A stretch of DNA of 64,000 nucleotides from Rhizobium phaseoli (GTDB lineage: Bacteria; Pseudomonadota; Alphaproteobacteria; Rhizobiales; Rhizobiaceae), in assembly GCF_010668805.1 (NCBI RefSeq), contig NZ_WUFT01000004.1, positions 248,001-312,000 of the forward strand. Reading direction: 5' to 3'. Position 1 is the first letter of the stretch. Each line of letters begins with the position of its first letter. Of the stretch, positions 53,156 through 60,327 are shown piece after piece. Position numbers and translations under genes: made by a program. A model generated the notes under the pieces. It did not search any database. It was not told the origin of the DNA and was given only the letters and a program-made list of their open reading frames with translations.

Positions 53156-54529
53156 TTAATGTGATGAAGGGATCGACGGCGGGTCTTCAGGCTGGGCCAA
53201 CTGACCGGCGGGAAGATCGATCACGACGACCAAGCCGCTCGGCTTCCTGTCCAGCAACGTCAATTCTCCGTTGTGCCCTTTGGTGACGATCCCCTTGGCG
53301 ATCGGCAGACCGAGCCCAAGCCCGGAACCGCCTTGGGCGCCGATCTGTCGCGATTTATCCGCTTTGAAGAACGGCTCTAAAACCTTTGTCTTGAGCTCAT
53401 CCGTCAAGCCGGGGCCGTTGTCGCTCACCCTTATTTCGATCCCGCCATCATTGCGGCATTCCAAGCCGATTTCGACCTGCGCCGCGTAACGGGACGCATT
53501 CTCCACCAGATTCGTAATCGCGCGGCTGAGCGCCTGGGGTTTGCAGATAAACGCCAGCCGCCGCGGGCCGGTGAAACTCACATCGACGCCGGTGTCGGCG
53601 AAATCGGTCGCGATCGTCTGCAGCAGGCTCGAGATATCGACCTTTCGATCGACCGCCCTCACCAACGGGTCTTTGAAATAGGCCAGGCACTCGTCGATCA
53701 TGAAGCTCAAGGTGGCGATATCGGCCAGCATCAGGCTGCGAAGTTCCGGCTCAGCGGAGCGCTCGGCCCGCATCCGCAGTCTCGTCAGCGGCGTCCTCAG
53801 ATCATGACCCACTCCGCTCAGCATTCTTGTCCGATCCTCCGCCATGCTCTGGATTCGATCGCTCATGACATTGAGTGATTCCGCAAGACTGCGAATCTCG
53901 GCTGCACCGTCCGGTTCGAAAGGTTGTTCCAGATTGCCTTCCATGCATGCTTGTTTGGCAGCGGCAGCAAACCGCCTGAGAGGTTCGGTGATCAGCCGGC
54001 TGCTGAAATAGGCGAGCAGCACCAAAGGAATGACGATCTTCAGAAATCCGCTTGCAGCTGCCGGAACGAACCACAAGTAGCTGGGAAAAACCGGCAGTTG
54101 GAAGACGAGGGCGCGCTTACCGTCAATTTCGACAGTCAAGACGTCAGGGTGCGATTGACCCATGACGAAGCGATGAAATGCCGTCAAAACATTGTCGGCG
54201 AGCATCGCGCCGATACGCGCCACCAACTCGCTTGGAGGTATCCGTTGTTCCCCTGCGCCGGACCGATCCAAGGGCGTCCTTTGGACCGTAATGCCGAGGG
54301 CTGCAGCTCGCTCGAGGACGACGTCTTCGCCCTCCGCCGATCTTGCCTCAGCAAATTGCTCCGCAATCATCGCCGCCCTCGCAGCAAACAGCCCGTTTTG
54401 AAAGCCGCGATCATGACGGCCGTAGATGAATGGCTCCATGGCGGTCGCCACCACGGAAACCAGCACGACAAGGAGGGTCGCCAGGATGAGGATCTGGTTC
54501 TGGATTGAAGCGCGCCGAAAATTTCTCAA
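53156..54529 (-). CDS. Sensor histidine kinase, EnvZ type
   Basis: A 457-residue inner-membrane kinase. A first membrane helix (ILILATLLVVLVSVVATAM) near residues 13-31 and a second near 157-178 flank a periplasmic domain. HAMP follows, then the H-box GVGHDLRTPLTRLRMRAE with phosphoryl-accepting His242. The catalytic domain has NLVENASRYA, DNGPGL and GSGLGLGLPIAKGI. It overlaps the response regulator gene by four bases (ATGA), so the pair is coupled. The layout is like EnvZ but the stimulus is unknown. Confidence 0.92.
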   Translation of the reverse strand: MRNFRRASIQNQILILATLLVVLVSVVATAMEPFIYGRHDRGFQNGLFAARAAMIAEQFAEARSAEGEDVVLERAAALGITVQRTPLDRSGAGEQRIPPSELVARIGAMLADNVLTAFHRFVMGQSHPDVLTVEIDGKRALVFQLPVFPSYLWFVPAAASGFLKIVIPLVLLAYFSSRLITEPLRRFAAAAKQACMEGNLEQPFEPDGAAEIRSLAESLNVMSDRIQSMAEDRTRMLSGVGHDLRTPLTRLRMRAERSAEPELRSLMLADIATLSFMIDECLAYFKDPLVRAVDRKVDISSLLQTIATDFADTGVDVSFTGPRRLAFICKPQALSRAITNLVENASRYAAQVEIGLECRNDGGIEIRVSDNGPGLTDELKTKVLEPFFKADKSRQIGAQGGSGLGLGLPIAKGIVTKGHNGELTLLDRKPSGLVVVIDLPAGQLAQPEDPPSIPSSH

Positions 54530-55266
54530 GAGAGACGCTCTACCTTGGATGCGAAAAGATAGCCGCCCAGCCGCACCGTCTTTATGAACGTCGGATCTTT
54601 CAGGTTCGGCTCTATCTTTTGCCTGACCCGGCTGATGTGGGCGTCGATGCTGCGCTCAACCGGTCCCGCCGATCCGGCATGCGTCATCGACAGAAGTTGT
54701 TCGCGGGTCAAAACCTTGTTCGGATTGCAGCAGAATGCCAGGAGAATATCGAACTCCGCGGTGGTCATCGAAACCTGCGCTCCGTCCGCGTCGTGGAGCT
54801 GACGGCTTTTGGGATCGATGCGCCACCCCGAGAACGTCATGAGGCCAAGTGCTTCCTCCTGATGAAGAGCATATGACGCTCTGCGGAGAATACTCTTGAT
54901 CCTGGCCAGCAGCTCGCGGGAGTTGAATGGTTTCGTGACATAATCGTCGGCTCCGAGCTCCAAGCCCAGAATGCGGTCGATATCTTCCTGAAGCGCCGTC
55001 AGCATCAAGATCGGTACCGGGCACGAAGCACGAAGCCGCCTGCAGATGCTGAAGCCGTCCTCGCCCGGAAGCATCGCGTCGAGGACGATGAGATCGAATT
55101 GCTCGCGCGCCATCAGTCGATCCATAGCCGCGCCGTTCTCCACCGACGAGGCCCCAAAGCCGCCGCTTCGAAGAAGGTCCACCAGCATATCCGCGATCGC
55201 GGGATCGTCCTCGACGATGAGGATACGAACGTGATTGGGAACTGCCATTTCATATGCCATCGTCAT
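54526..55266 (-). CDS. OmpR-family response regulator
   Basis: A 246-residue two-domain regulator. The receiver domain contains ILIVEDDPAIADML, the phosphorylation site in DLIVLDAMLPGEDGF and the conserved lysine in YVTKPFNSRELL. The C-terminal winged helix reads LTREQLLSMTHAGSAGPVERSIDAHISRVRQKIE. Starts at 55266, 55260 and 55248 are all possible, since none has a clear Shine-Dalgarno; all keep the receiver intact. It is upstream of and coupled to the sensor kinase. Confidence 0.9.
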   Translation of the reverse strand: MTMAYEMAVPNHVRILIVEDDPAIADMLVDLLRSGGFGASSVENGAAMDRLMAREQFDLIVLDAMLPGEDGFSICRRLRASCPVPILMLTALQEDIDRILGLELGADDYVTKPFNSRELLARIKSILRRASYALHQEEALGLMTFSGWRIDPKSRQLHDADGAQVSMTTAEFDILLAFCCNPNKVLTREQLLSMTHAGSAGPVERSIDAHISRVRQKIEPNLKDPTFIKTVRLGGYLFASKVERLS

Positions 55267-55455
55267 TCGTTCTGTTGCCGGGAGCTGCGGCGCGAAATTA
55301 CCATGTTTCACCATGGCCGGGTCAAAGATCTCGGAGGGATGCCACACGATGCCAGCCGCCGCGCCGGACGCCGCCTTCAGCATATCAGGTGTCGTGCGAT
55401 GATATGTTCGATAATGTTGAGATATGTTGCGGGGATCTCCGAGATGGATCCGGCG

Positions 55456-56360: not shown

Positions 56361-56467
56361 CACTGGCACACTCCTGACCTGTCGCCATAAGTGTAGCCCG
56401 CATCGACGCTTCCGTTTGTTCGGTTTTATTCGGTTTTATTGCGCCGGGGAGGTTCGCGAAGCTTTGA

Positions 56468-56914
56468 CTACAGCACCGCCCGGAGCCAGGGATGCAGTCT
56501 GTTTGTTCGCTTTTGCAGCAGCTTGTCGATCGATATCGATCCCGCGCCTGAAGCCGCCAGGACGAACATGCCGCCGGCGATCGCCAGGTCCTTCTCGAAA
56601 TGCAGCAGCTCGTTCTGGCTCGCAAAATTCGTGTGGAAGAGAAAGGCGGTCGCCAGGCAGAAGAGCGCCAATGCAAGCGCGCCAAGCCGGCTGAGGAAAC
56701 CTGCCGCAATAGAAAGGCCAGCGCCGATCTGAAGGACGATCACCGCAAGCGCAACCGGCGCCGACAGGCCGAGCGTTGCGAAAGTGTCGATGGTCGTGGC
56801 GATATTGGTCGCGAGAGACAACCCTTCATGCAGGAAGATCAGCGATAGCAGCAGCCTGCCCAGGAGAAGAACGAGATCGGCCAGTCGCAGCCGGCTTGGG
56901 GCGTTTTCCATCAT
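56468..56914 (-). CDS. DoxX-family membrane protein
   Basis: A 148-residue protein with four hydrophobic helices. DoxX features are LLLGRLLLSLIFLHEGLS near residue 15, IVLQIGAGLSIAAGFLSRLG near 62, and AIAGGMFVLAASGAGSISID near the end. GGAGG precedes the ATG. It is third in line after the MBL-fold and TPR genes, 59 bases from the latter, with a hairpin in between. DoxX proteins often go with oxidative or thiol stress functions. Confidence 0.85.
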   Translation of the reverse strand: MMENAPSRLRLADLVLLLGRLLLSLIFLHEGLSLATNIATTIDTFATLGLSAPVALAVIVLQIGAGLSIAAGFLSRLGALALALFCLATAFLFHTNFASQNELLHFEKDLAIAGGMFVLAASGAGSISIDKLLQKRTNRLHPWLRAVL

Positions 56915-56929
56915 ATCCTCCGGTTTGAG

Positions 56930-56958
56930 AAGAGCAGGCGGTTAGCCCGCCTGCTCTT
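56930..56958 (-). other. Intercistronic hairpin between TPR and DoxX genes
   Basis: AAGAGCAGGCG (56930-56940) pairs perfectly with CGCCTGCTCTT (56948-56958) around a seven-base loop. No T-run follows on the minus strand, and the DoxX Shine-Dalgarno comes right after. It may cause partial termination or protect the upstream mRNA. Confidence 0.65.
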
Positions 56959-56973
56959 ACATTCATATACTCG

Positions 56974-57435
56974 TCAATTCCCACCCTTGGCCGTAATGGC
57001 CTTTTGTAGATCGTCGAGTTCCTCGCAGCCACTCGGGCAAAGTTGCTTCAGTGATGACACCTGCTCCTCGGCCTTCGCCATCTCGCCCGTTTCAACATAG
57101 AGTTCGCCGAGATATTCACGTGCTGCCTTGTGGTCGGGCTGAAGCTCCAGCGCCTTGGTGTAGTAGGTCAGCGACGTTCTGTAGTCGCCCGTCTTGCGCA
57201 GCGTATATCCCATCAGATTATAGACATCTGCCTGCTGGTTGTCCTCGGCAAGGCCGCGAAGCTCCGCCAGGGCGCCGGCATAGTCCTTGGCATCGATCTT
57301 GGCGCGCACCGAGGTCAAGTCGGGAGCGTCCGTCGATTGCATGTTGTCGACGGCAAAGGCGGGAAGCGCCGTCACCGCGGAAAAGCCCGCGCATATGGCA
57401 CAAAGCCAGATGAATCCGAGAATTGCATATTTCAT
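56974..57435 (-). CDS. Periplasmic TPR protein
   Basis: A 153-residue protein with a signal peptide (MKYAILGFIWLCAICAGFSA, cleaving near ALPAFA). Three TPR-like units follow; the clearest is YNLMGYTLRKTGDYRTSLTYYTKALELQP near residues 82-110, then AREYLGELYVETGEMAKAEEQ. Two cysteines (LCPSGCEEL) near the end could form a disulfide or metal site. AAGGAG lies seven bases before the start. It is 20 bases downstream of the MBL-fold gene and clearly in the same operon. Confidence 0.83.
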   Translation of the reverse strand: MKYAILGFIWLCAICAGFSAVTALPAFAVDNMQSTDAPDLTSVRAKIDAKDYAGALAELRGLAEDNQQADVYNLMGYTLRKTGDYRTSLTYYTKALELQPDHKAAREYLGELYVETGEMAKAEEQVSSLKQLCPSGCEELDDLQKAITAKGGN

Positions 57436-57455
57436 GGTGGTCTCCTTTCGGCCTT

Positions 57456-58430
57456 TCAGGCCCGGACTGTCGGTGTAAAGCCATAGGCATTGCCGTCCTT
57501 GACGAACGTGCCCGAGCCGGGGAAAGGGAAATGCGAGCCGCAGATCGCGATATTGTCGGCGATGATGCGGTCGATCAGGCGCCGGCGCGTATCGACGGCC
57601 ATCGGCCCGTCCTGGTCGTAGCTGCCTTCCCATTCGGGATGCGGCGCGAGCAGGGCCGGCACATACATGATGTCAGCCGAGACAAGCAGTTGCTTGCTGC
57701 CCGAGGCGATGAGATAGGCGGAATGGCCGGGCGTATGGCCGGGCGCGGCGACAAGCTGCATGCCGGGGGCAACTTCTGCGCCGTCGACGACGAGCTTCCA
57801 ATTCTTCCATTTCGGGAACACCTCGGCGATGCGCTTGCCGGCCGGCTTTCGGCCTTCGGCGAGCTTTTCGACCCGGCCGGGTTCCGTCCACCAATTGTAT
57901 TCGACGGCGTTGACGATGAGTTCGGCGTTCGGGAAGACGGGATCGTTCGTTCCCTTTTCCATCAGTCCCCAGACGTGGTCTGGATGGAAATGCGAGAGCA
58001 TGATCGTATCGATCTTCTTATAGTCGATGCCGGCAGCCGCCATGTTCGCCGGCAGGTGCGTGGCATTTGCCTGCCATTGACCGACGCCCGAGCCGGCGTC
58101 CATCATGATCAGACGATTGCCGAGCTTCAGGACGACCACCGTCAACGGGATCGGCATGAATTCGGTGGTGAGCCCGGCCTTGGAAAGCGCCTCCTTGGTG
58201 TCCTCGATCGAAGCGTTCTTGATGAAGGTCGGGTCATGCGGCTTTTTCCAGATACCGTCATAGATCGCCGTGACCTCGACATCCCCGACCTTGTATTTGT
58301 AGAAGCCGACCATCGGCTCCAGCGGCGTCGCGGCGAGCGCCGGCATGACGAATTCGAGCTTCGACGACAGACCGAATGCAGCCGCCGCGGCAGCCGATCC
58401 GAGGACCGCGCGACGTGACATGGTAAACAT
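57456..58430 (-). CDS. Secreted metallo-beta-lactamase-fold hydrolase
   Basis: A 324-residue protein. The N-terminus MFTMSRRAVLGSAAAAAAFG is a twin-arginine-type signal. The zinc motif HxHxDH is present in MLSHFHPDHVWG near residue 140, with further ligands in AAPGHTPGHSAYL and in the closing ICGSHFPFPGSG. Such enzymes hydrolyse lactones, thioesters or sulfonyl compounds in the periplasm; the substrate is unknown. GAGGAGG lies eight bases upstream. It heads an operon with TPR and DoxX genes and faces the ECF sigma gene across paired promoters. Confidence 0.88.
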   Translation of the reverse strand: MFTMSRRAVLGSAAAAAAFGLSSKLEFVMPALAATPLEPMVGFYKYKVGDVEVTAIYDGIWKKPHDPTFIKNASIEDTKEALSKAGLTTEFMPIPLTVVVLKLGNRLIMMDAGSGVGQWQANATHLPANMAAAGIDYKKIDTIMLSHFHPDHVWGLMEKGTNDPVFPNAELIVNAVEYNWWTEPGRVEKLAEGRKPAGKRIAEVFPKWKNWKLVVDGAEVAPGMQLVAAPGHTPGHSAYLIASGSKQLLVSADIMYVPALLAPHPEWEGSYDQDGPMAVDTRRRLIDRIIADNIAICGSHFPFPGSGTFVKDGNAYGFTPTVRA

Positions 58431-58503
58431 GGATATGCCTCCTCTTGTTGATGGCATTTCTGGTGGCGAAGACTGGAATTGGTCAGATGCCCTCGCTGCC
58501 GAA

Positions 58504-58532
58504 CTAGATCGCTGGCGAAGCCGGCTTATTCC
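58504..58532 (-). promoter_or_regulatory. Candidate ECF promoter for the MBL-fold operon
   Basis: Read on the minus strand, GGAATAA (58532-58526) is followed by 15 bases and then GATCTAG (58510-58504). The same two blocks with identical spacing occur in the opposite direction at 58634-58662. The expected transcript start is about 65 bases before the MBL-fold start codon. The GGAAT block is typical of ECF sigma -35 elements. Confidence 0.65.
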
Positions 58533-58633
58533 CAGTCTCGGGAGTTATTTCTTCAAGCTGTTGAAAACGTTTTCCGATTTCTATCACGTGCGACTGACGT
58601 CCCACCGCATGCATAAAAAAATGGCGTCGCAGT

Positions 58634-58662
58634 GGAATAAAACCGTGTGCCGATCGGTCTAG
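58634..58662 (+). promoter_or_regulatory. Candidate autoregulatory ECF promoter
   Basis: GGAATAA (58634-58640), 15 bases, then GGTCTAG (58656-58662). It differs from the divergent copy at 58504-58532 by one base in the 14 block positions. It lies about 70 bases upstream of the sigma factor start. The region 58431-58731 holds these two promoters and no gene. Confidence 0.65.
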
Positions 58663-58734
58663 ACGGCAAGGGACCGCATTGCATGCCTGTGGGTCTCACG
58701 CCTAAATTCGGCTGCTGTTGAGGCAGGGAGAATG

Positions 58735-59484
58735 ATGACAAACGCTCAGATCACCTATCCCTTCGGATCGAACGGCTGGTTGCTGCTGGGCCGGCAACCG
58801 TCGAAGACCCGCATTCGACCGTCGCCGCTGGCCGTGCTTCTCGGCGGCGCTGTACGGTTATTCCACCTCATGGTCTCGGAAAAATCGAGCAGCGATCGGG
58901 TCGCTTCGGCAGCCGATGCGATCGTGCAGCATGAGTTCATGCAGCGCTTTCAAGACATGATCGTTCCCCATCTTGACGCGGCGTATAATTTTGCCCGTTT
59001 CCTCAGCCGCGATGCGGATGCCGCACAGGATATTGTCCAGGAAGCGTTCCTGCGCGCCTATCGCAATTTTGAAACCTATCGTGGCGGCGATCCGCGCGCC
59101 TGGCTCTTTGCCATCATCAGGAACTGCTGCCATGTCTGGCGCCAGCAGGATCGACGCAAAGCGCGGTTCGAGCAGCCTTTGGGCAATGACGGCTACGCTG
59201 ACCCCGATGAAGGTGGCGAATACCAGATCGCCTCGGAGGAGGATTCGCCGGAGACGGCGACGATCCGGCGAAGCGAACAGCAGCGCGTACGTGCAGTTAT
59301 CAGCCGACTTCCGGAGGCGATGCGGGAAATCCTTGTCTTGCGCGAGCTTGAAGATCTTTCCTACCGGCAGATCGCGGAGATCATCGATGCGCCGATCGGC
59401 ACGGTCATGTCGCGGCTTGCCAGGGCGCGGCGTGAATTTGGCGAAGCCTGGGATGCATGCGGCAAAAGCGAGACGGCAGGATGA
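58735..59484 (+). CDS. ECF-type RNA polymerase sigma factor
   Basis: A sigma-70 family protein of 249 residues from the ATG at 58735 (GGGAG four bases upstream). Region 2 reads AYNFARFLSRDADAAQDIVQEAFLRAYRNF with AWLFAIIRNCCHVWRQQ, and region 4 reads LPEAMREILVLRELEDLSYRQIAEIIDAPIGTVMSRLARARREF. About 45 N-terminal residues before VSEKSSSD do not look like sigma factor; an ATG at 58870 would remove them (204 residues) but has no Shine-Dalgarno. The stop overlaps the anti-sigma start (ATGA). Confidence 0.9.
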   Translation: MTNAQITYPFGSNGWLLLGRQPSKTRIRPSPLAVLLGGAVRLFHLMVSEKSSSDRVASAADAIVQHEFMQRFQDMIVPHLDAAYNFARFLSRDADAAQDIVQEAFLRAYRNFETYRGGDPRAWLFAIIRNCCHVWRQQDRRKARFEQPLGNDGYADPDEGGEYQIASEEDSPETATIRRSEQQRVRAVISRLPEAMREILVLRELEDLSYRQIAEIIDAPIGTVMSRLARARREFGEAWDACGKSETAG

Positions 59485-60281
59485 GTGGAGCCCAACAGAA
59501 AGGTTGCCCGGAATGGCGCGTCATGCTGCACGGCTTCGTCGATGGCGAACTCGATTCCGTCCATGCAGCGCAATTCGAGGACCATCTTGCCACCTGCGCG
59601 AATTGCCGGGCGGAGATGGAAAGGGTCCGCGGCGTGAGAGAGATCATCGATCAGGATGGCATCAAGTGGAAGCCGCCGGTGGCGCTGCGCTCGCAAGTGC
59701 TGTCAATGCTGTCTTTCGAACAGTCGGCAGTGGTATCCAGCCTGCCGCTGCAGCGTCAGGCGTCGGTCTGGCGCCGCGCCCTGGATTTCTTCCGGCAATG
59801 GAGCTTCGTGCCTTCGCTGGCGGCATTGGCGGCAGGCGCAATCCTGTTCGCCAGCGCGCCATCGCAGACGATGCTTTTGCAGGACCAGATCATGGCAAGC
59901 CATGTCAGGTCGATGATGGCCGATCATCTGACCGACGTGCTGACCTCGGATCAGCACACGGTAAAACCCTGGTTCAACGGCAAGATCGATTTTTCGCCAC
60001 CGGTCAGCGATCTCTCCAAGGATGGCTTTCCGCTGATCGGCGGGCGTGTCGACTATATCGGTGATCGCGCCGTTGCTGCCCTCGTCTACCGGCGCCACGG
60101 CCATGTCATCAACCTGTTCATCTGGCCCGCGGCATCGGCCGCCCAGACGACGACGGTGCATGATGGCTACAACATGACGCAATGGTCGGACGGAGGGCTG
60201 GTGTTCTGGGCAGTTTCGGATGTCGCCGCAGGCGACCTGGCCGAGTTCGAGACCTTTTTCAGGGCGGCGGCGAAGGGTTAG
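59481..60281 (+). CDS. Membrane-anchored zinc-finger anti-sigma factor
   Basis: A 266-residue protein. The N-terminal anti-sigma zinc motif HxxxCxxC is His35-Cys39-Cys42 in FEDHLATCANC. One membrane helix (SFVPSLAALAAGAILFASAP) lies near residues 105-125, and the rest is probably periplasmic. It would hold the sigma factor at the membrane until a signal acts. Its start overlaps the sigma stop, giving coupled synthesis. The zinc cysteines could make it redox-sensitive. Confidence 0.9.
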   Translation: MSGAQQKGCPEWRVMLHGFVDGELDSVHAAQFEDHLATCANCRAEMERVRGVREIIDQDGIKWKPPVALRSQVLSMLSFEQSAVVSSLPLQRQASVWRRALDFFRQWSFVPSLAALAAGAILFASAPSQTMLLQDQIMASHVRSMMADHLTDVLTSDQHTVKPWFNGKIDFSPPVSDLSKDGFPLIGGRVDYIGDRAVAALVYRRHGHVINLFIWPAASAAQTTTVHDGYNMTQWSDGGLVFWAVSDVAAGDLAEFETFFRAAAKG

Positions 60282-60327
60282 AGCCTTTTCCTGGTCAGAG
60301 CTCAATCTGACCGGGAAAGGCTCTAAA
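60278..60327. terminator. Long hairpin between convergent genes
   Basis: TTAGAGCCTTTTCCTGGTCAGA (60278-60299) in effect pairs with 60306-60327 across a six-base loop, with one or two mismatches in 22. The stop codons of the anti-sigma gene (60279-60281) and of the convergent DUF1345 gene (60325-60323) both lie inside the stem. It resembles a dispersed repeat (see 7654-7760) acting as a bidirectional terminator. Confidence 0.75.

Follow-up and report, generated by a model that had tools for sequence, protein, structure and literature searches.

Does a single extracytoplasmic function (ECF) sigma factor direct transcription of the two divergent operons that lie back to back in a 64-kb stretch of the Rhizobium phaseoli contig NZ_WUFT01000004.1 (positions 248,001 to 312,000, hereafter the window)? 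One operon encodes the sigma factor and its membrane anti-sigma factor, and the other a metallo-beta-lactamase (MBL)-fold hydrolase, a tetratricopeptide repeat (TPR) protein and a DoxX-family protein. Near-identical paired sites recur between the operons in all 36 copies of this block that were compared, and one sigma therefore likely switches on both operons. The best candidate is the linked sigma, which likely transcribes its own operon together with the MBL-TPR-DoxX operon and would be held by the anti-sigma factor until a predicted RseB-like domain of the latter responds to an envelope signal. An earlier sequence-only reading had described the operons as sharing a mirrored promoter, with two divergent candidate sites. 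Both of its sites, at 58504-58532 on the minus strand and 58634-58662 on the plus strand, are present there with zero mismatches, and its GGAATAA-N15-GRTCTA is rewritten here as GGAATAA-N16-RTCTA. They form two separate divergent promoters, one facing each operon, with -35 boxes about 100 bases apart, and a single promoter common to both operons is ruled out.

The significance of the two sites lies in their exactness, because the total number of matches is near the shuffle expectation: three further matches in the window carry three mismatches each, giving five in all against a shuffle mean of 3.82 with three mismatches allowed. Across the 6,604,236 bases and 168 contigs of the genome GGAATAA-N16-RTCTA occurs twice, both times at this locus, and the reversed control does not occur at all. 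A variant with G before RTCT and lacking the final A has three genome matches, the third on another contig. The looser GGAATAA-N15-17-GTCT has six matches against three in the control; of those elsewhere in the genome, one lies upstream of another sigma gene (L121), and no plausible target was seen by eye for the other four.

The sequence-only reading had expected the paired motif to persist wherever the gene block is kept, and it does. In a scan with one genome per species, for which 80 of 135 loci were kept, the sigma gene adjoins the MBL gene in 35 loci (L007-L041) from Rhizobium species, 'Rhizobiales' isolates, two Phyllobacterium and one Xanthobacteraceae metagenome-assembled genome (MAG). 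Contig ends leave the TPR and DoxX genes out of view in L008 and L019, and DoxX was not detected in L025. Other loci keep the sigma and anti-sigma genes without the MBL gene (L042-L047) or the sigma gene only (L048-L060); L061-L086 were left out of this gene-content comparison. Both sites are found at N16 with at most two mismatches in 36 of 36 regions (the window and the 35 loci), with at most one mismatch each in 30 and exactly on both sides in 21, counts that are not independent events as the regions are related. At each of the other spacings from 10 to 22, at most four regions have a site with no more than one mismatch, and both sites appeared together within two mismatches in one of 720 dinucleotide-shuffled sequences, made from 12 of the 36 regions. 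On either side GAATA and TCT do not vary, the spacer letters being more variable, and a conserved stretch just 3' of the MBL promoter (Table 1) is probably where the leader starts.

In a scan of 148 genomes of the genus, 93 have an exact site, with 142 matches in total against about 32 for the reversed control. Sixty-six of these matches form 33 divergent pairs whose starts lie 117-129 bases apart; the pairs are spread over 32 genomes, and 25 of these have no further match. The remaining 76 matches are unpaired: among them are sigma sites from blocks whose MBL site carries a mismatch, and others may be chance matches. Strain Vaf-46 (L008, L011) has two copies of the sigma/anti-sigma pair. The copy on a plasmid of R. 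leguminosarum Vaf10 (L166) matches over only 38 residues of the MBL gene, next to a transposase gene of the IS5 type, and its sigma match is broken over two frames. The same 38 MBL residues match in L008, and the sigma match on an R. grahamii plasmid (L165) also lies in two frames.

The sites also follow the MBL operon into a second Rhizobiaceae genus with a sigma factor of another lineage. The MBL protein of this genus is 79-82% identical to that of the window and the sigma factor 39-42% (five genomes measured), and the second-genus rows lie among the rhizobial ones in the MBL tree (several weak forks) but not in the sigma tree. G668 has its sigma, anti-sigma, MBL, TPR and DoxX genes together on a single strand, along with three GGAATAA-N16-GTCT sites, and in the other five genomes the MBL operon is unlinked to sigma. 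A zero-mismatch site lies 310, 637 and 504 bases upstream of the MBL gene in G073, G443 and G602, respectively, and a site with one mismatch 212 bases upstream in G505; a search allowing one mismatch found none upstream of the MBL gene in G1061. The MBL operon carries such a site in five of the six genomes. Over 14 Rhizobiaceae genomes from the two genera, the anti-sigma factor (E ≤1e-30) and the MBL orthologue (identity of at least 79%) are both present in eight and both absent in six, most of which have weaker homologues; G1061, which was found through its anti-sigma, has both. The proposal of the sequence-only reading that one sigma controls both operons draws support from this co-occurrence, from the motif in all 36 regions and from its presence with the MBL operon in five of six second-genus genomes; the control itself is deduced from these patterns.

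The promoter element belongs to a type known from Sinorhizobium meliloti, where an RNA-seq map gives the RpoE1 promoter as GAAT-N18-GTCT with starts 5-12 bases downstream (PMC3616915), in agreement with the RpoE1-type element in Table 1 of PMC6180224 and in PMC6527743. As given in these sources, the RpoE1 promoter equals the element here, except that the MBL side has A for G in the -10 box. Three kinds of reference locus were identified: L203 is RpoE1, with a promoter identical to the SMc01418 promoter as published; L178 and L179 are RpoE4, with promoters within two and three mismatches of the one in print, and in L178 a sulfite-oxidase-like gene, seen by eye, follows RpoE4; L163 is RpoE6, on pSymA beside an S8 peptidase gene. 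The sigma factor itself is 29-36% identical to RpoE1, RpoE4 and RpoE6. In a tree of 33 sigma factors, which included these three and four other sigma paralogues of the genome, it falls into a clade of 22 (support 100/99, midpoint root), with RpoE1, RpoE4 and RpoE6 on a separate branch; an earlier tree with longer branches gave a less clear split. An ECF26 label for the window sigma was dropped, as the tree separates its clade from these three despite the matching promoter. Literature searches, covering titles and the starts of abstracts of open-licence papers, found no paper devoted to this clade. The RpoE1-EcfR1 and RpoE4-EcfR4 systems (ECF26) have in common with this block the GAAT-N18-GTCT promoter, an autoregulated sigma/anti-sigma operon and a very small regulon. 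They differ in that the sigma here is only 29-35% identical to theirs and belongs to another clade, the anti-sigma factor has a zinc-type N-terminus, and the predicted targets are MBL, TPR and DoxX rather than sorT or SMc01418.

An improbable alternative is that a different sigma of this genome, for instance the RpoE1 orthologue, is the main reader of both sites, with the linked sigma serving other targets. That orthologue, L121, is assigned by the tree, in which it groups with RpoE1 (positions 1303-2777), and has its own GGAATAA-N16-GTCT site upstream (1007-1033). RpoE1 and RpoE4 respond to sulfite, overlap in their targets and cross-activate in S. meliloti, as described in PMC3511301, which also mentions preliminary data showing no sulfite induction for RpoE3 and RpoE6; RpoE1, RpoE4 and RpoE6 all act on a heterologous ECF26 promoter. 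Against such a role for L121 stand the confinement of the exact RTCTA form to this locus, the company of the sites with the linked sigma in 36 orthologous regions and in relatives from other genera, and the eight-plus-six co-occurrence of the anti-sigma factor and the MBL orthologue, a count of which the RpoE1 orthologue is not part. Scarcely different in probability, and also unlikely, is membership of the block in a sulfite response of the RpoE1/RpoE4 kind, with the operon serving sulfite or thiosulfate handling. DoxX proteins occur in thiosulfate oxidation, the promoter element is that described for RpoE1 and RpoE4, and the RpoE1 anti-sigma factor is 32% identical over 81 residues to part of the window anti-sigma, a weak match. 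The supported split of the sigma clade from RpoE1, RpoE4 and RpoE6 speaks against this assignment, and a sulfite operon was set aside as the five genes include no sulfite oxidase. That the sites bind a conserved activator or repressor instead of an alternative sigma is very unlikely: the region is indeed short, symmetric and highly conserved, but the fixed N16 with variable spacer letters and the identity to ECF promoters as mapped in the cited work are typical of -35/-10 elements, and no additional regulator gene was seen within the block.

The N-terminus of the anti-sigma factor carries HxxxCxxC and matches zf-HC2 (E 2.6e-10) and, by profile, RsiW (1.9e-7), and on this sequence similarity of the sigma-binding domain it belongs to the zinc-type anti-sigma factors; the zf-HC2 cysteines are lost in the second Rhizobiaceae genus. 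The periplasmic domain of the anti-sigma factors of the clade is modelled as most like the C-terminal domain of RseB/MucB. The RseA-RseB and MucA-MucB systems of the sigma-E and AlgU envelope stress responses have a membrane anti-sigma factor governed from the periplasm, as is predicted here. RseB and MucB are separate periplasmic proteins, whereas the domain whose model resembles their C-terminal domain is here fused to a 266-residue anti-sigma factor behind the zf-HC2 domain and a hydrophobic segment; their lipid-binding N-terminal domain is absent from the model, and the sigma factors and targets of those systems differ from those of this block. An ECF/anti-sigma pair over a small gene set is also found in the ECF16 operons, those of BcrS of Brucella and Caulobacter sigma-F, the latter presumably a member of this group. 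The Caulobacter paper (PMC3511200) mentions DoxX, but the ECF16 promoter GTAAC-N17-CGAA and the partner genes differ from those here. The membrane anti-sigma factor with its RseB-like modelled domain and the predicted exported effectors make an envelope stress response plausible.

Among these effectors, the MBL protein has H147, H149, D151, H152, H232, D253 and H300 (HxHxDH, H, D, H) invariant in 14 of 14 aligned rows, residues that we take to be metal ligands. Its nearest solved structures are of the methyl parathion hydrolase/lactonase kind (PDB matches from 5.6e-60 to 5.1e-39, near full length), to which branch of MBL hydrolases it belongs by sequence. It scores below the NCBIfam cut-off for every named lactonase listed, including the AidB lactonase model NF047979 (159.8 bits against 360). 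Methyl parathion hydrolase, organophosphorus hydrolase (presumably OPHC2) and AidB-type lactonases have near full-length homology to it and share all metal ligands; unlike these enzymes, the protein here is linked to a proposed ECF regulon. Its export by the twin-arginine translocation (Tat) pathway, proposed in the sequence-only reading, is favoured by an RR motif invariant in 14 of 14 rows, although the protein itself matched no Tat model. The TPR protein keeps two cysteines in nearly all rows (one residue closer together in L167), and the DoxX protein scores 47.6 bits against a Pfam cut-off of 23.6 and keeps an NELLHFEKD-like motif. The TPR gene was rejected as a marker of the module, since 83 of the 289 genomes examined in the class carry homologues at 1e-12; among 30 TPR loci fetched (L133, from the genome itself, and L134-L162), L160 alone besides the window has a sigma or hydrolase that belongs to this system. 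In the 28 loci of MBL relatives with less than 50% identity (L089-L116), no partner genes were seen within about 1.5 kb. Elsewhere in the genome (contig C146, L119) a TPR gene of this family, with the cysteine motif, stands ahead of a further ECF sigma/anti-sigma pair, and in a Sinorhizobium-type genus (L196-L198) a TPR match lies upstream of sigma; these layouts therefore form a second link between the TPR family and ECF sigma factors.

In other bacteria a different hydrolase mostly stands beside relatives of the sigma pair. An anti-sigma profile search of 398 genomes of the phylum gave 26 with a match at 1e-15, and 24 loci, one per genome, have a strong match (E ≤1e-59), seven of them in Rhizobiaceae. 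With the phosphoesterase of a Xanthobacter locus (L043, recognized by eye) as a query, a calcineurin-like phosphoesterase was found within about 1.5 kb in 14 of the 24 loci, accompanied by a cupredoxin in seven; the MBL gene lies beside the pair in two (the window and G668), and neither hydrolase is in view in eight. Five of these eight are genomes of one other Rhizobiaceae genus with MBL encoded elsewhere, and no such hydrolase was seen by eye in the 11-12 kb context of G403, G1104 and G1106. Of the 17 genomes sampled outside Rhizobiaceae, 14 have the phosphoesterase beside the pair; Rhizobium and Phyllobacterium have the MBL-TPR-DoxX operon in its place. Pfam identifies both phosphoesterase and cupredoxin in Trinickia (L045) and in a gammaproteobacterial MAG (L044), and G157, where phosphoesterase and TPR genes are divergent from sigma, is a bridge between the two layouts. 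The nearest PDB match of the phosphoesterase is the phosphohydrolase 2zo9/2dxl (1.5e-7), which we take to be GpdQ. When three phosphoesterases (L265, L044, L167) were compared with NCBIfam, that of L044 matched a Tat model, and export of these enzymes is predicted mainly by eye.

The promoter element also occurs in these other genera. Sites of the form GGAATAA-N16-RT[CA]T with at most one mismatch were sought between 500 bases ahead of and 200 bases into each matched sigma, phosphoesterase or MBL gene, and were found at N16 in 22 of 43 regions (25 loci, two from G1061, Rhizobiaceae) against zero to seven at spacings 10-15 and 17-22, an exploratory count as the -10 letter was relaxed after GGTAT was seen. 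A site is present in 11 of the 14 phosphoesterase loci (lacking in G1133, G1116 and G911) and in all four further named loci, L043-L046. Mirrored pairs, one towards each operon as in the window, occur in G965, G186 and G157. Where the layout is tandem, the phosphoesterase gene comes first and the site is mostly found ahead of it.

The five gene identities proposed in the sequence-only reading are confirmed by Pfam (Sigma70_r2/r4, zf-HC2, Lactamase_B, TPR, DoxX; Table 1). Besides the related Sigma70_r4, no domain other than Sigma70_r2 and Sigma70_r4_2 is above cut-off in the sigma protein, which has regions 2 and 4 only and is an ECF sigma. Its first 60 or so residues form a poorly constrained extension behind an MMTxAQI start that most relatives keep; within the extension (58732-58917) codon positions 1 and 2 vary about as often as position 3 in most of eight relatives compared, and three have indels. 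The gene starts are consistent with their surroundings: AGGAGG precedes the MBL ATG at 58430 and GGGAG the sigma ATG at 58732. The sigma and anti-sigma genes overlap by 4 bases, and gaps of 20 and 59 bases separate MBL from TPR and TPR from DoxX. The inverted repeat at the anti-sigma stop is present in a single copy in the window and is a terminator or a repeat element. In the surroundings, a short direct repeat, TTCGGTTTTAT TCGGTTTTAT, lies downstream of the DoxX gene at 56420-56440, and a minus-strand tandem of response-regulator-like and histidine-kinase-like genes was seen by eye at 53156-55383.

Table 1. Positions in the window of the genes, promoter elements and other features of the block.
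Feature	Position	Strand	Basis
Promoter element of the sigma/anti-sigma operon, GGAATAA-N16-GTCTA	58634..58661	+	motif match; kept in orthologues
Promoter element of the MBL-TPR-DoxX operon, GGAATAA-N16-ATCTA	58505..58532	-	motif match; kept in orthologues
Conserved stretch just 3' of the MBL promoter, GTTCGGCAGCGA here, consensus GTTCGTCAGCGA	58493..58504	-	column conservation
ECF sigma factor, Sigma70_r2 and Sigma70_r4_2	58732..59484	+	Pfam
Membrane anti-sigma factor: N-terminal zf-HC2, one hydrophobic segment, predicted C-terminal periplasmic domain	59481..60281	+	Pfam, alignment, model, profile
Anti-sigma residues 164-266, domain modelled like the RseB/MucB C-terminal domain	59970..60278	+	structure model
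MBL-fold hydrolase, methyl parathion hydrolase/lactonase type, predicted twin-arginine signal	57456..58430	-	Pfam, PDB matches, alignment
Predicted periplasmic TPR protein, near-invariant CxxxC	56974..57435	-	Pfam, alignment
DoxX-family membrane protein	56468..56914	-	Pfam, alignment
Terminator-like hairpin (-32 kcal/mol) formed by a strong inverted repeat at the anti-sigma stop	60281..60323	.	

Taken together, the sites and their conservation, the gene content, the co-occurrence and the modelled fold are best read as a small, autoregulated regulon for envelope stress whose sigma lineages and hydrolases appear to have been exchanged. In the proposed mechanism, where sigma dependence, signal, substrate and all activities are predictions, the linked sigma would read both divergent sites, and the anti-sigma factor would keep it at the membrane until the RseB-like periplasmic domain responds to an envelope signal. 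Release of sigma, by proteolysis or a change of shape, would raise all five proteins, and the raised anti-sigma factor would close the feedback loop. The MBL protein, probably exported by Tat, may then cleave a periplasmic lactone or phosphoester, as its nearest solved relatives suggest, and the TPR protein with its CxxxC motif and DoxX could support it at the membrane or transfer redox equivalents. A more speculative and rather doubtful extension is that an ECF switch, with an RseB-like sensor built into its anti-sigma factor, monitors the envelope for a phosphoester or lactone of amphiphilic character, and that unrelated exported metallohydrolases, methyl parathion hydrolase-like MBL proteins in rhizobia and GpdQ-like phosphoesterases elsewhere, have been placed under the same promoter to destroy the inducer, an arrangement of a single sensor and exchangeable effectors. 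With two exact sites in the genome, the regulon is small enough for complete testing in one strain, and the analysis provides a promoter-to-effector hypothesis for this sigma clade. The exchange of one enzyme for another behind a common kind of sensor and promoter suggests that MBL and calcineurin-like hydrolases can share one periplasmic job, which would narrow the search for signal and substrate.

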